From Nocardioides aurantiacus (lineage in GTDB: Bacteria > Actinomycetota > Actinomycetes > Propionibacteriales > Nocardioidaceae), in the NCBI RefSeq assembly GCF_003752505.1, contig NZ_RKHO01000001.1:2232001-2296000 (forward strand): a stretch of DNA of 64,000 nt, given 5' to 3'. Within the stretch, counting starts at the first letter, position 1; every line of letters begins with the position of its first letter. Of this stretch, positions 30,157-36,994 are shown one piece after another. The notes under the pieces are model-generated. The model searched no databases. It had not been told where the DNA came from and saw only the letters and a program-made list of their open reading frames with translations. A program made the translations under genes and the position numbers.

Positions 30157-32103
30157 TCAGTCGCGCGGACCGCGGCCCGCGGCCGGGTCGTGGAGGTCGG
30201 CGTCGCGGGTGGCGTGCTCCCCGTCGAGCGCGGTGACCTCCTCCACGATGCCTCGTGCGAGCGACTGGGCGGTGAGCCCGATCCGCTCGAGGATGACGTC
30301 GCGCTTGGCATGGTCGAGGAACTCCTGGGGGATGCCGTGCTGGCGGAACGGGGTCGGGACCCGCTCGTCGTTCAGCAGCTGCAGCAGCGTCGAGCCGCAG
30401 CCACCGACCCTGCCGTTGTCCTCCACGCAGACCACCAGGCGGTGCTCGCGGGCGAGCGGGACGATCGCAGGATCCCACGGCTTGACCCAGCGCGGGTCGA
30501 CAACGGTGACGCCGATGCCCTGGTCGGCCAGCCGGGCGGCGACGTCGACGCCGACCGCCGCCATCGAGCCGACGCCGACGATGAGCACGTCGCGCGCGCC
30601 GTCACGGACCAGGACGTCCATCGACCCGACCCGGTCGACCGCCTCGAGGTCGGTCGCCGGCGGCGCACCCTTGGGCAGCCGCAGCACCGTGGGGGCGTCG
30701 TCGACCTCGACGCACTCGCGCAGCAGCTCGGCCACGCGGGCGCCGTCGCGGGGCGAGCACATCCGCAGCGACGGCACGACCTGGAGCACCGACATGTCCC
30801 ACATGCCGTTGTGGCTGGCACCGTCGTCGCCGGTCACCCCGGCCCGGTCAAGGACGAAGGTGACGCCGCACCCGTGCAGCGCGACGTCCATCAGCACCTG
30901 GTCGAAGGCACGGTTGAGGAAGGTGGCGTAGATCGCGACGACAGGGTGGAAGCCACCCAGCGCGAGGCCGGCGGCGCTGGTCACCGCGTGCTGCTCGGCG
31001 ATGCCCACGTCGAAGGTGCGCTCGGGGTACGCCGCGGCGAAGCGGTCGAGCCCGACGGGGTAGAGCATCGCGGCGGTGATGCCGACGACGTCGCTGCGGT
31101 CCGCGCCGAGCGCGACCATCTCCTCGGCGAAGTAGTCGGTCCAGATCCGGCCCTTGGGGGTGCCCACGCCGGTCTCGACGTCGAACGGCCCGATCTGGTG
31201 GAACTGGTCGGCCTCGTTGCGCTCCGCCGGGTCGTAGCCGAAGCCCTTGCGGGTGATGGCGTGCACGATCACCGGGCCGCCGAACCGCTTGGCCTGGGTC
31301 AGCGCGATCTCCATCGCGGCCCGGTCGTGGCCGTCGACCGGCCCGACGTACTTCAGGCCGAGGTCCTCGAAGAGGCCCTGCGGCGCGAGGGCGTCCTTCA
31401 TGCCCTTCTTCATCGCGTGCAGCGCGTCGTAGACGGCCGGGCCGACCCCGCGGACGCCGTTGAGCTTGCGCTTGACCACGTCGAGGAGCTGCTCGTAGCG
31501 CGGGCTGGTGCGCAGCGCGGTCAGGTGGTTGGCCAGGCCGCCGACGGTCGGCATGTAGGAGCGACCGTTGTCGTTGACGATGATCACCAGTCGCTTGTCC
31601 GCACCGTGGCGGGGCGTCTCGGCGATGTTGTTGAGCGCCTCCCAGGCCATGCCGCCGGTCAGCGCGCCGTCGCCGATCACCGCGACCACGTGACGGTCCT
31701 CGCCGCGCAGGGCGTAGGCCTTGGCCAGCCCGTCGGCGTAGGACAGCGAGGTGGAGGCGTGGGAGTTCTCGACCACGTCGTGGGCCGACTCCTTGCTGCT
31801 CGGGTAGCCGCTGAGGCCGCCCTCCTGGCGCAGCGTGTCGAACGCGGGGGCGCGGCCCGTGAGCATCTTGTGGACGTAGGCCTGGTGGCCGGTGTCGAAG
31901 ACGACGCGGTCGCGCGGCGACTCGAAGACGCGGTGCACCGCCATGGTGAGCTCGACCACGCCCAGGTTGGGGCCGAGGTGACCGCCGCGCGGGGCGCAGG
32001 TGCGGATCAGCTCGTCGCGGATCTCCGAGGCGAGCTCGTCGAGCTCGCGGTCGTCGAGGTCGTGGAGGTCGGCGGGGCCGGTGAGCTGCTGCAGGTGACC
32101 CAT
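30157..32103 (-). CDS. dxs: 1-deoxy-D-xylulose-5-phosphate synthase
   Basis: A 648-residue thiamine-diphosphate enzyme that condenses pyruvate and glyceraldehyde 3-phosphate, the first step of the non-mevalonate isoprenoid pathway. [11 protein letters not shown] (41-51), the thiamine-diphosphate motif [16 protein letters not shown] (144-159), and the transketolase-type central and C-terminal domains ([28 protein letters not shown]) are all present. ATG 32103 has AAGGAGG 11 bases upstream, slightly long. The gene stands before the lipoprotein peptidase with no other isoprenoid gene nearby. Confidence 0.96.
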
Positions 32104-32159
32104 GGGCGGCGTGGCCTCCTTCGTGGTGCGGTCGGGCGGGGGTTCCGGACGCACCGAGT

Positions 32160-33131
32160 CTAGACGGGGGCGCCCGGGACGCGGCCCGTGGCGAGCTCGA
32201 CCGTGGCGAGCGCGGCCTCCTCGAGGCTCGACAGCCACAGCCGGCCCTCGTGCTCGCGCACCCCGGTGACCATGTGGAAGTCGGTCGCGGGCAGGCGCAG
32301 GTCGTGCACCAGCGTGCCGTCGGGCCGGTAGGCCTGCACGTGGACGCTGCGCACCGGCCCGGGCAGCAGGGCCGGCGGCACGCGGCGGCCCAGGCGGCGC
32401 ACGGCGGCCGGGGCGTGGGCACGCAGCCGCTCCAGCGCGGCCACCGGCGGGGAGGCGATGGTCACCCAGACCAGGCCGTCGCTGCCGGTGGACAGGTTGT
32501 CGGGATAGCCCGGGAGGTCGGCGGCGAACAGGTCGCGGGTCCCGGCGCGCGGCCCCGTCAGCCACAGCCGCACGACGGTCCGCGCACCCGACTCGGCGAC
32601 GTGGACCGCCGACCCGTCGGGCGAGAGGGCGACCCCGTTGGCGAAGTCGAGACCGGTGAGGTGCTCCTCGACCGCGCCGTCGGGGGCCCGGCGCAGCAGC
32701 CGCCCGGTGCAGGTCGCCTCGAGGAGGTCGGCGCGCCACCGCGACAGCGGGTGGACGGCGCTGGAGTCGCTGAACCAGATCGACCCGTCGGCGGCCACGG
32801 CGGCGTTGTTGCACACCCGCAGCGGGCGGCCCGCCACCTCGGTCACCAGCACCTCGACCGCGCCGGTGCGGCGGTGCACGGTCAGCAGCCCGCGCTCGGC
32901 ATCGGCGACGAGCAGCCGGTCCTCGTCCAGCAGCTCGATGCCGAGCGGCCGACCGCGGGTGTGGCCCACGCGCGTCACCGACCCGTCGGGCGCGACGCGC
33001 AGCAGGGCGCCGTCCTCGGTGCCGGTGATGCCGTGGCCCTGCTCGTCGACCACCACGTCCTCGGCACCGTGGCCGGGCACCGCGAGGCGGCGCAGCAGCG
33101 CGCGGCGGGCGGCGGGGGCGGGGGCGCTCAT
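32160..33131 (-). CDS. SMP-30/strictosidine-synthase-like beta-propeller protein
   Basis: A 323-residue soluble protein built of repeated beta-sheet blades. [24 protein letters not shown] near 205-230 matches the strictosidine synthase-like conserved region, and [19 protein letters not shown] near 165-185 the SMP-30/gluconolactonase blade motif. Such proteins are calcium-dependent lactonases or related hydrolases. No signal peptide is seen. It lies 56 bases before dxs on the same strand. The substrate is not evident. Confidence 0.8.
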
Positions 33132-33202
33132 GCGGTCGCCCCCGGGCGGTCGAGGAGCAGGACGACGGCGAGGCGGGGCATGCGGCCCAGCCTAGGGACC
33201 AC

Positions 33203-33574
33203 TCACAGCCGGGCCCGGAACCGCCGGCCGCGCAGCGCCTCCTCGACCAGGCCCACCGCTCGTCGTACGCCCAGCAGGCGCGCGCCCTCACGGTGCCAGG
33301 TCTGCACCGCGGCCTCGACCACGTCGGGCGGGGCGACGTCGCGCAGCCCGCCGCGGGCCTCGCTCAACCCGCGCTCGACGGCCTGGCGCGAGGCCTCCAC
33401 GTGCAGCACGGCGAACCGCGCCAGCACCACCACGTGACGGCGCAGCGCGGGGTAGGAGCGGTACTCCGGCGGGCACAGGTCGAGCAGCCAGGCCGCGGCG
33501 GTCGCCTCCCAGTCGGGGGCGTCGGGCGGCCTCACCTCGGCCGGCCACCCCGGCGGGGTCACGAGCGACGTCAT
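33203..33574 (-). CDS. Small conserved-looking protein behind a LexA box
   Basis: A 123-residue soluble protein I cannot assign. It begins with a Pro-rich segment ([16 protein letters not shown]), then [31 protein letters not shown] and basic helices ending RGRRFRARL. It looks helical and could bind nucleic acid or a protein partner. The decisive context is a perfect SOS box (33596-33611) only 22 bases upstream of ATG 33574, so it is probably induced by DNA damage. There is no overlap with neighbours. Confidence 0.75.
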
Positions 33575-33595
33575 GGCTCCACCCTAGCCGGTCGT

Positions 33596-33611
33596 TCGAA
33601 CACCTGTTCGA
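33596..33611. promoter_or_regulatory. LexA (SOS) box
   Basis: TCGAACACCTGTTCGA matches the actinobacterial/Gram-positive SOS consensus TCGAAC-N4-GTTCGA at every fixed position and is palindromic over seven bases per arm. It lies 22 bases upstream of the 33203-33574 gene and downstream of the xdhC-like stop, so it controls the small protein. Confidence 0.8.
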
Positions 33612-33627
33612 GCAGCCGGTGGCACCG

Positions 33628-34134
33628 TCAGCCTGGGCGGCCCTCGCGCATCGGCCCACCGCGGCGGCCGTGGGACTCGGCCACGATCTCGGCGACCACC
33701 GACAGGGCGATCTCCCCCGGTGCCCGGCCACCGGTGTCGAGGCCGGCCGGCACGTGCAGCTTGTCCAGCCCGGGTGCGCCCTCGGCCTCGAGCTCGGCGA
33801 GCAGCCCCTCGGCCCGTCGACGGCTGGCCATCATCGCGACGTACGACGCGGGCGAGGCCAGCGCCTCGCGCAGCACCCGGGGCGCGTCCGGCGCGTCGTG
33901 GTCGCACAGCACGACGGCGTCGCCCGCGGCGGGCGTCAGCGCGGCGACCGCCTCGGCCCCGCGGCCGTCGGCGTCCTCGTCGACCACCACGGCCTCGCGG
34001 CCGACCGCGGTGACGATGGCGGCGATCGCCTCGGAGACGGGGTTGCGGGTGAGCACCAGGACACGGCCGGGGCCGGCGCCGTCGTCGGTCCAGGACTGCT
34101 CGCGTCCGGGCGGGCGGGGCGTCGGGGTGCTCAT
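33628..34134 (-). CDS. XdhC-like Rossmann-domain protein, short form
   Basis: A 168-residue protein matching the C-terminal Rossmann domain of XdhC/CoxI, the factor that delivers molybdenum cofactor to xanthine dehydrogenases: RVLVLTRNPVSEAI near the N terminus, SYVAMMASRRRAEGLL in the middle and PAGLDTGGRAPGEIALSVVAEI at the end. The N-terminal XdhC domain is absent, and no molybdenum hydroxylase lies in the window. ATG 34134 is four bases after the yjbQ-like stop, so the two are co-transcribed. Confidence 0.8.
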   Translation of the reverse strand: MSTPTPRPPGREQSWTDDGAGPGRVLVLTRNPVSEAIAAIVTAVGREAVVVDEDADGRGAEAVAALTPAAGDAVVLCDHDAPDAPRVLREALASPASYVAMMASRRRAEGLLAELEAEGAPGLDKLHVPAGLDTGGRAPGEIALSVVAEIVAESHGRRGGPMREGRPG

Positions 34135-34138
34135 GGCC

Positions 34139-34543
34139 TCACCCTGCCAGGAACGAGAACCGCACGGTGCGGACCGCGTTGTCCACGTTGAGGTCGACCA
34201 GGCAGACGCTCTGCCAGGTGCCCAGCGCCAGCCGGCCGCCGACGACCGGGAGGCTGGCGTACGGCGGCACCAGGGCCGGCATCACGTGCGACCGACCGTG
34301 GCCGGGCGTGCCGTGGCGGTGCCGCCAGCGGTCGTCGGCCGGCAGCAGGTCGGCCAGTGCGGCCAGCAGGTCGTCGTCGGACCCGGCGCCGGTCTCGAGC
34401 ACGGCGAGCCCGGCGGTGGCGTGCGGCACGAACAGGTGCAGCAGTCCGTCGCCCTCGCCCGCGACGAAGTCCACGCAGTCGTCGGTCAGGTCGAGCACCA
34501 CGTCGGTGTCGCCGGTGCGGTAGGTGCGTTCCTCGGACCTCAT
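34139..34543 (-). CDS. YjbQ family protein (UPF0047)
   Basis: A 134-residue member of the YjbQ/UPF0047 family. GLLHLFVPHATAGLAVLE is the characteristic conserved region, with His and Thr in the active cleft; HRHGTPGHGRSHVMPAL and LALGTWQSVCLVDLN complete the signature. An E. coli homologue has reported weak thiamine phosphate synthase activity. The ATG overlaps the stop of the upstream thiamine-binding-type gene as ATGA, so the two are translated together. Confidence 0.85.
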   Translation of the reverse strand: MRSEERTYRTGDTDVVLDLTDDCVDFVAGEGDGLLHLFVPHATAGLAVLETGAGSDDDLLAALADLLPADDRWRHRHGTPGHGRSHVMPALVPPYASLPVVGGRLALGTWQSVCLVDLNVDNAVRTVRFSFLAG

Positions 34544-34854
34544 CGCAGCCGCTCCTCCACCCGCTCGACCTTGGCGGTGAGCTGGCCGTCCCATCCCGGT
34601 CGCACGTCGGCCTTGAGCACGAGCCCGACGCGGGGGTAGCGCTCGCCGACGACCTCGACGGCGCGCTTGACCACGGCCATCACCTCGTCCCACTCGCCCT
34701 CGATGTTGGTGAACATCGCGTTGAGCTCGTGCGGGAGGCCGGAGTCGCGGACCACCTGCAGGGCGGCGGCGACGGCGTCGCTGACGCCGCCGTCGGGGGC
34801 CGGGCTGCCCGCGAGGGGCGTGCCGGAGGGACTGATGCTGATGGCGACGAGCAT
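34540..34854 (-). CDS. MTH1187/UPF0045 family thiamine-binding protein
   Basis: A 104-residue ferredoxin-like protein of the UPF0045/DUF77 family (MLVAISISPSGTPL at the start; GLPHELNAMFTNIEGEWDEVM in the middle). Structurally studied members bind thiamine or related compounds. It is the first gene of a leftward unit with the YjbQ-like and XdhC-like genes. The thiamine link is from family knowledge; no thiamine biosynthesis gene or TPP riboswitch is seen nearby. Confidence 0.82.
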   Translation of the reverse strand: MLVAISISPSGTPLAGSPAPDGGVSDAVAAALQVVRDSGLPHELNAMFTNIEGEWDEVMAVVKRAVEVVGERYPRVGLVLKADVRPGWDGQLTAKVERVEERLR

Positions 34855-34978
34855 GCCCCCACTGTGGCACCCCGCTCCTGCCCCTCGGGCGACGAGGTTG
34901 CCACGGGAGGGACGCCTCAGGGCACCATGTCCCCCACGGCAGCGACCTCCTGCTGCCGGTCACGGGGAGGAGCGGTGG

Positions 34979-36994
34979 ATGCGCGTCCACGGGGTGCCCG
35001 CGCGCACGGTCGTGCTGACCGTGGTGCTGCTCGTGCTGCTCGCCGCGCCCGGGGTCTTCGACCTCTCCCGCGCCTACGCCGGGTGGCCGGCCTTCGGGCT
35101 GGCCGTGGCGGTGCTGCTCGACGTGCCGCGGGGCCGACGCCGGTGGGCGGCGACCGCGCTGGTCGTGCTGAGCGCCCTGCCGATCTCCTTCAGCTATGGC
35201 GCCCCGCTCCTCCTGGGCGCGGTGGGCGCCCTGGCGCTCGCGCTGCCCGCCCTGCTCGTCGCGACCCACCTGCTGCGGGGCGAGCACACCCGCCCCGGCG
35301 CGCTGGTCGAGGTCGACTCGCTCCGCTTCCTCGTCGTCGTCCTGTCGGGGGCGGCCCTCAACAGCGTGCTGCCGACGGTGGTGGGCATCGGGGACGGCAT
35401 CCCTTCCGGCCTCGAGGCCCTGGTCGTCAGCTTCGTGGCTGCGACCACCGCCCAGCTCGTGGTGCTGCCCCAGCTCGTGCTGACCAGCGACCGGCCCCCG
35501 TCCGCCGGCACTCTGGAGCTCTGGTCGCAGCGCCTGGTCCTCACGGTGGTCTTCCTGGCGGTGTTCTGGCCGCGCAGCGCCGTCGGGCTCGCCTTCCTGG
35601 TGCTGCCCGCCATCGGCTGGGCCGCCGTGCGCGCGACGCAGCGCGAGACCCACGTCCAGACCTTCCTGGTCTGCGTGGGCGCCTTCGCCCTCAACCTGCT
35701 CGGCCGCGGCCCCTACGCCGACCCGGCCCCGGACGGCCTGGCCGCGGCGGCGAGTGCCTCGCTCGTCTACGCCTTCGTCCTCGCCGTCTGCTTCGGCACG
35801 GTCCCGCTGGCGCTCGTGGTCAGCCGGCTGTCGTCGATGACGACGTACGCCGAGCGCTCGAGCAGCGCGATCGAGCTGATGCTCGAGTCGGCGACCGGCA
35901 CGCTGTTCATCGCGGTCGACGAGACCGGTCGCACCACGCACTGGAGCGCGGGCGCCGCACGGACGCTGGGGTGGACCTCGGCGGAGATGCTCGGCCGCAG
36001 CCCCGCGGAGCTCAACCCCCAGGAGGAGGTCGACCGCCACGCGGCGTACTTCGGGGTCCCACCCACCCACGCGGCGGCGCTCCACGCCATGGTCGACACC
36101 GGCGAGCGCCGCGACTGGGCCTACCGGCACCGCGACGGCGGCACCGTGATGGTCTCGCTGACGATCAGCCAGATCACCGAGCCGTCGGGACGGGTGGCGG
36201 GCTACATCGCCTCGGGCGAGGACGCCACCGAGCGCATCGAGACCCAGCGGACCCTCGAGGCGGCCCTCGAGCGCGAGCGCGAGTCGGTGCTGCGGCTGCA
36301 GGAGGTCGACCACGTCAAGCAGGAGCTGGTCTCCAACGTCAGCCACGAGCTGCGCACCCCGATCACGAGCATCTCGGGCTACTCCGAGCTGCTCTCCGAC
36401 GGCAGCCTCGGCGAGCTCAACCGGCAGCAGCTCGACGCGCTCGCGCGGATCGAGCGCAACACCACCCGCCTCGGGCTGCTGGTGGAGGACCTGCTGCTGC
36501 TCTCCCGCGCGGAGGCCGGGCACCTCCAGCTCGAGCGCCGCCCGACCGACCTGCGCCACGTCGCCCAGGAGTCCTACGACCTCGTCTCCCCCACCGTGGC
36601 CCAGCGCGACCTGCAGCTGGACCTGGACGTGCCCGACGCTCCCGTCACCGTGCTGGGCGACCCCGACGCGCTGGAGCGGGTGGTGACCAACCTGACCGGC
36701 AACGCGATCAAGTTCACCCCCGACGGCGGCCGGGTGACGGTGACCGTGTCCCGGTCGGGACGCGACGCCCTGCTCCTGGTCAGCGACACCGGGATCGGCA
36801 TCTCCGAGGAGGAGCAGGCGCAGCTGTTCACCCGCTTCTTCCGCTCCTCGCGGGTGGTCGAGGAGGCGATCCAGGGCACCGGCCTGGGCCTGTCGATCGT
36901 GGACGCCATCGTCACCCGCCACGGCGGCACCGTCCGGGTGACCTCGGCGATCGACCGCGGCACCCGGGTGACGGTGACGCTGCCGCTCGCGTGA
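34979..36994 (+). CDS. Membrane sensor histidine kinase (MASE1-like, PAS)
   Basis: A 671-residue kinase. An N-terminal MASE1-like region of about eight membrane segments (1-285) is followed by a PAS domain (about 297-415; TTHWSAGAARTLGWTSAEMLG), a HisKA domain with phospho-acceptor His456 (SNVSHELRTPI), and an ATPase domain with NLTGNAIKFTPDGG, DTGIGIS and GTGLGLSI boxes. ATG 34979 has GGAGGAG upstream. No response regulator gene lies adjacent, so it is an orphan kinase. The signal is unknown. Confidence 0.9.
   Translation: MRVHGVPARTVVLTVVLLVLLAAPGVFDLSRAYAGWPAFGLAVAVLLDVPRGRRRWAATALVVLSALPISFSYGAPLLLGAVGALALALPALLVATHLLRGEHTRPGALVEVDSLRFLVVVLSGAALNSVLPTVVGIGDGIPSGLEALVVSFVAATTAQLVVLPQLVLTSDRPPSAGTLELWSQRLVLTVVFLAVFWPRSAVGLAFLVLPAIGWAAVRATQRETHVQTFLVCVGAFALNLLGRGPYADPAPDGLAAAASASLVYAFVLAVCFGTVPLALVVSRLSSMTTYAERSSSAIELMLESATGTLFIAVDETGRTTHWSAGAARTLGWTSAEMLGRSPAELNPQEEVDRHAAYFGVPPTHAAALHAMVDTGERRDWAYRHRDGGTVMVSLTISQITEPSGRVAGYIASGEDATERIETQRTLEAALERERESVLRLQEVDHVKQELVSNVSHELRTPITSISGYSELLSDGSLGELNRQQLDALARIERNTTRLGLLVEDLLLLSRAEAGHLQLERRPTDLRHVAQESYDLVSPTVAQRDLQLDLDVPDAPVTVLGDPDALERVVTNLTGNAIKFTPDGGRVTVTVSRSGRDALLLVSDTGIGISEEEQAQLFTRFFRSSRVVEEAIQGTGLGLSIVDAIVTRHGGTVRVTSAIDRGTRVTVTLPLA

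Follow-up and report, generated by a model that had tools for sequence, protein, structure and literature searches.

A conserved LexA box upstream of a gene for a small, predicted helical-hairpin protein, a probable member of the SOS response in Nocardioidaceae

There are several described systems with which the locus reported here can be compared. YneA, ChiZ, and SulA are small SOS-controlled proteins that inhibit cell division, and suppressors of the YneA/ChiZ type carry a LysM domain and a membrane anchor. The half-motif of actinobacterial lexA promoters is given as TCGAACA (PMC2248561). In Streptomyces venezuelae, no function is known for most genes that carry a LexA site (PMC9380542), so it is useful to pick out those that matter.

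The window analyzed here is a 64-kb stretch of a 4.06 Mb single-contig Nocardioidaceae chromosome. It contains the gene for a 123-aa protein, labeled X (33203-33574, minus strand), that is very probably regulated by LexA. As in the actinobacterial and mycobacterial LexA regulon, the box of X is exact and its motif is also present at lexA and recA of the same genome. Read on the coding strand, the box shares its first 15 bases, TCGAACAGGTGTTCG, with the Mycobacterium tuberculosis recA box (PMC8607333, Table 1). In contrast to that regulon, X lies outside the repair core and is apparently unstudied, its Streptomyces-like homologues have no box, and it was not recognized in Table 1 of the S. venezuelae study (PMC9380542). 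The genes of the ImuA'-ImuB-DnaE2 mutasome offer a second comparison. The imuA' gene of this genome also has an exact LexA-type box, but X does not match the ImuA' model NF058630 at E <= 10, imuA' was unlinked to X in 139 loci, and the presence of the two is anti-associated across Nocardioidaceae. X differs from YneA and ChiZ in having neither a LysM match (E <= 10) nor a membrane span. With ThcOx (PF22767) it shares only a weak match over a stretch, below the gathering score.

It is likely, in our judgment, that X is a LexA-repressed SOS gene that is expressed from a leaderless mRNA and encodes a predicted helical-hairpin protein with a putative accessory role in damage tolerance. As far as partial searches can tell, X is a conserved and apparently unstudied SOS gene, and no publication on it was found in a partial literature search. 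X is a strong candidate for a component of the bacterial SOS response that has so far been missed. The gene is short and foldable, its box and its promoter layout are both retained in two or more distant families, and its presence pattern is partly complementary to that of the mutasome. It offers a cheap and direct test of whether Actinomycetes possess another, still undescribed way to tolerate DNA damage.

The LexA box and the promoter of X

The features of the locus are as follows.

33628-34134, minus strand: XdhC Rossmann-domain protein, the upstream neighbor, with its stop codon 16 nt from the box
33596-33611, minus strand: LexA (SOS) box, exact TCGAAC-N4-GTTCGA, TCGAACAGGTGTTCGA on the coding strand
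33581-33586, minus strand: TAGGGT, a -10-like element (TANNNT) with its end 6 nt upstream of the X start codon
33203-33574, minus strand: gene for X, 123 aa and 13.7 kDa, with its ATG at 33574-33572
32160-33131, minus strand: SMP-30/strictosidine-synthase-like protein, the downstream neighbor
30157-32103, minus strand: dxs (1-deoxy-D-xylulose-5-phosphate synthase), further downstream

A pattern scan of the window found the 16-mer TCGAACACCTGTTCGA at 33596-33611. It is the single exact TCGAAC-N4-GTTCGA site in the window, with nine further sites at exactly 2 mismatches. The exact sites expected there by chance number 0.0009 from base composition to 0.0019 from dinucleotides. Over the 4.06 Mb of the genome, 0.06-0.12 exact sites would be expected and five were observed. 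The position and the exact match claimed in the initial annotation were thus borne out by the scan. The distance from the box to the ATG, given there as 22 bases, was counted as 21 bases.

Throughout the genome, there are 29 sites at no more than 1 mismatch, against seven for a reversed control pattern. The surroundings were examined for 19 of the 28 sites outside the window, in 15 stretches. Four sites at 1 mismatch lie between lexA (an NCBIfam equivalog) and a divergent gene for a LysM protein, which matches YneA below the YneA cut-off. One upstream site at 1 mismatch was found at recA, and sites at 0-1 mismatch precede uvrA and a gene for a 2OG-Fe(II) oxygenase (AlkB-like by inferred name). 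The exact box at imuA' (137.5 bits to NF058630, cut-off 65) is followed by the gene and then by an imuB-like gene. A LexA-type site was also found upstream of a DUF6504 gene. No target could be confidently named in the other stretches examined. Judged by sequence, the LexA box used in this genome is TCGAAC-N4-GTTCGA.

Two further observations were made around these sites. The divergent region of lexA and the LysM gene (L206, G000:C1:992520-996651, 2001-2144) contains one site at 2 mismatches in addition to the four at 1 mismatch. Three DUF222 genes (L199, L202, and L212), one with an HNH domain, start no more than 30 nt from LexA-type boxes, and they resemble the M. tuberculosis SOS genes of the 13E12 repeat.

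The placement of the box relative to the start codon and to a promoter-like element can be read directly from the window. From TAGGGT, transcription would likely start on the first codon of X or directly beside it, so that the mRNA would be leaderless. A -35 hexamer 17 nt upstream of TAGGGT would fall inside the box. The box thus overlaps or abuts the predicted promoter, and LexA bound over the -35 position or against the -10 element would block the polymerase. Repression and induction of X would follow established LexA biology. In an undamaged cell, LexA would occupy the box (33596-33611) across the -35 region and keep the promoter with its TAGGGT element shut. RecA filaments would cause LexA to cleave itself, and the leaderless X mRNA would then be transcribed and yield a 13.7-kDa protein, predicted to be a helical hairpin with no membrane span.

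Conservation of the box and the promoter layout

It is the conservation of the box upstream of homologues that decides the question of LexA regulation. Relatives of X are present in 178 of 341 Nocardioidaceae genomes. There are 58 named X loci, mostly from Nocardioides, and 56 of these were scored, as two have no upstream sequence. The scan ran from 150 bases before to 30 bases after the projected start. A box at 0-1 mismatch was found in 49 of the 56, against none of 214 control windows taken at these loci, the best of which had 2 mismatches. The seven loci with no box belong to two Nocardioidaceae bins, three bins assigned only to Actinomycetota, a Propionibacterium bin (3 mismatches), and Kineosporia. 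Among the 30 best family matches, all 29 distinct loci have a box at 0-1 mismatch, although their species partly overlap those of the named loci.

A second family, f18, carries gene X in 121 of 150 genomes. It is probably Streptosporangiaceae, a name that rests on a protein from a Nonomuraea plasmid record (L215) with 50-87% identity to ten f18 proteins. Seventy loci were examined in this family, namely the top 30 matches and 40 chosen from lower in the list, which gave 67 distinct loci that are counted nowhere else. The box is present at 0-1 mismatch in 49 of these 67 (0/133 control windows) and at 0-2 mismatches in 62 (1/133).

The box is missing in many other actinobacterial families that have the gene. 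A class-wide sample had it at 0-1 mismatch in 13 of 80 loci, namely in nine of ten from f18, two of three from f34, and single loci from f2 and f48. After de-duplication, 55 of 68 distinct loci had no box (67/80 before). None of the 12 homologues from f20 has one; this family is named Streptomycetaceae (Streptomyces-like) from a plasmid-record protein (L216) with 56-98% identity to twelve f20 proteins. The expectation that homologues would keep the box therefore held for most of the named loci and for f18, but not for many other actinobacterial families. On a FastTree of 168 distinct X proteins, the box state must change 11 times, with two loci that have no upstream sequence (L085 and L092) scored over the wrong stretch. 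Since so many homologues have no box, the original role of X need not be SOS.

In a draw of 296 genomes from across the phylum, 10 had X, and every one of these was the window's own or belonged to the class Actinomycetes. Not one of 50,697 phage records matched X. Four of 72,556 plasmid records did, all of them actinobacterial replicons, with sizes from 0.2 to 11.9 Mb, and an origin from a phage or plasmid was set aside on this basis.

The promoter layout is also kept. Of 140 distinct genes with the box, from which L085 and L092 are left out, 122 have a TANNNT element whose end lies 5-7 nt ahead of an in-frame start codon, with two genes at 5 nt, 88 at 6 nt, and 32 at 7 nt. Shuffles of the 60 nt that follow the box, start codons included (in a set of 141), gave a mean of 0.71 and a highest value of 3. 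Leaders this short are compatible with leaderless mRNAs; in Streptomyces coelicolor, 264 of these have been mapped (PMC4681348).

The protein and its possible role in damage tolerance

Protein X has a pI of 9.95, with 18 Arg and no Lys. It has no membrane span, and its highest 19-residue hydropathy mean is 1.2. W10, P11, P35, and L51 are nearly invariant in 236 sequences. The predicted model, built from an input of 38 sequences, has a mean pLDDT of 91. It shows a proline-rich N-terminus followed by two long helices, 48-79 and 83-114, that form a helical hairpin. The initial annotation could not assign the protein to a family, and this still stands, as nothing was above the cut-off in Pfam, NCBIfam, PADLOC, or PHROGs. 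No match at E <= 10 was found in the last three. The structure prediction and the search for remote homologues that had been proposed yielded the hairpin and no family. Fold searches with the model returned generic helical hairpins only, with nothing at E <= 0.001 in Foldseek, and the best PDB sequence match had an E of 1.3. A scan of 38 aligned homologues against NCBIfam gave weak matches, the best to SecE at E 0.004.

Two candidates were tried and rejected. The one Pfam match of X is to ThcOx (PF22767), at 14.6 bits (E 0.066) where the cut-off is 27.7, and 15 of the 38 homologues have a weak match over a stretch of this family (best E 8e-4). The match of X is below the gathering score, spans 44 residues, and was not accepted as homology. 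A role in DNA binding was suggested by the basic pI and was dropped because the pI ranges from 4.7 to 11.1 among relatives.

Our best guess is that X acts as an accessory factor of damage tolerance. It would most likely bind another protein or a nucleic acid, and could perhaps share the niche of the ImuA'-ImuB-DnaE2 mutasome. X could also be an SOS checkpoint protein of cell division like SulA, YneA, and ChiZ, as several small SOS proteins are division inhibitors. This appears doubtful for a protein with no membrane span, no LysM match, and no Foldseek match at E <= 0.001. The genome moreover already possesses the LysM gene opposite lexA, with its match to YneA below the cut-off, and this gene may fill the role of division inhibitor.

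It was also considered that X is a stand-in for, or an alternative to, the mutasome, so that either one would be enough for the cell. The presence of the two genes in the 341 Nocardioidaceae genomes, incomplete ones included, is suggestive. Both are present in 81 genomes, X only in 97, ImuA' only in 153, and neither in 10. Thus, X is carried by 97 of the 107 genomes that have no ImuA', and ImuA' by 153 of the 163 that have no X. Genome size and lifestyle are uncontrolled in this anti-association. It is carried by genus g18 (both 62, X only 63, ImuA' only 86, and neither 4) and by the smaller genera (5, 27, 17, and 4, respectively). A search for ImuB in 209 g18 genomes agrees with it, as 66 genomes with no ImuA' gave no or weak matches and no genome with ImuA' did so. 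In the window's own genus, there is no association (14/7/2/1, Fisher p 1.0). Genus g2 has no X at all.

Phylogeny-aware support for the anti-association is mixed. A Pagel-type test on 89 rpoB sequences, run with our own script on a quick, midpoint-rooted tree, gave an LR of 21.7 and a p of 2e-4. These sequences were not a random sample but comprised the 30 best matches and 60 picked by hand further down the list, with one outlier (G232) left out. The stricter independent-pairs test gave a median p of 0.25 to 0.63, which is not significant. In addition, 81 of the 341 genomes have both systems, the present genome among them, and 10 have neither, while X is predicted to be a 123-aa helical hairpin and has no polymerase match. 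That X is such a stand-in or alternative is unlikely. The pattern suggests that X may matter most where the mutasome is missing.

Within Nocardioidaceae, ImuA' is missing from 67 of 215 g18 genomes, and ImuB is missing along with it. On the rpoB tree of the 89 genomes, the ImuA' state changes at least 12 times.

The neighborhood of X

The genes around X were explored in 139 loci, some of them too short to show dxs or aconitase, with names assigned by NCBIfam. The commonest neighbor is dxs, which is downstream on the same strand in 90 loci and recurs in about 25 families. Aconitase is upstream in 46. With these as its usual neighbors, X appears to have long been resident in a housekeeping neighborhood. 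Aconitase was found in seven of 36 box-bearing Nocardioidaceae loci with enough sequence and in 33 of 54 box-less loci from families other than f1, f18, and f20, a comparison that is confounded by descent and uses the box labels in which L085 and L092 were mis-scored. The initial annotation had placed X apart from repair genes. Queries for lexA, recA, imuA', DUF6504, AlkB-like, DUF222/HNH, and LysM proteins indeed found no match in the 139 loci, and a UvrA query matched two (L067 and L069).

A bolder proposal, to which we give little credence, can also be made. X would be an undescribed family of SOS effectors in Actinomycetes with a damage tolerance independent of the mutasome. It would have been recruited from the aconitase-dxs housekeeping locus through the acquisition of a leaderless promoter under LexA control, and the mutasome could be lost in lineages that retain X.

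The recurrence of dxs downstream and of aconitase upstream could also mean that the box serves the genes downstream. Damage would then raise SMP-30 and dxs, and X would be a passenger or a metabolic protein linked to dxs. This is improbable and was set aside because f18 retains the box even though none of its nine box-bearing loci with enough sequence has dxs. Furthermore, the SMP-30-like gene and dxs are each preceded in the window by a TANNNT-type element of their own, the former by a TAGGCT between X and the SMP-30-like gene. That the box is a chance match is scarcely credible, for although looser palindromes are common in the GC-rich window, as the nine sites at 2 mismatches show, only 0.001-0.002 exact sites are expected and the box is conserved across genera and families against matched controls.

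A few minor features are also present around X. The XdhC protein at 33628-34134 (minus strand) is a stand-alone Rossmann domain of 168 aa. It has a match in three of the 139 X loci, including the window, and adjoins X in one. No Rfam family reached its gathering score within 32000-35000. A mini-ORF of 17 codons lies at 33128-33181 (minus strand), with the TAGGCT 7 nt before its ATG. It terminates in an ATGA that overlaps the start of the SMP-30-like gene, and this mini-ORF may couple the translation of that gene.
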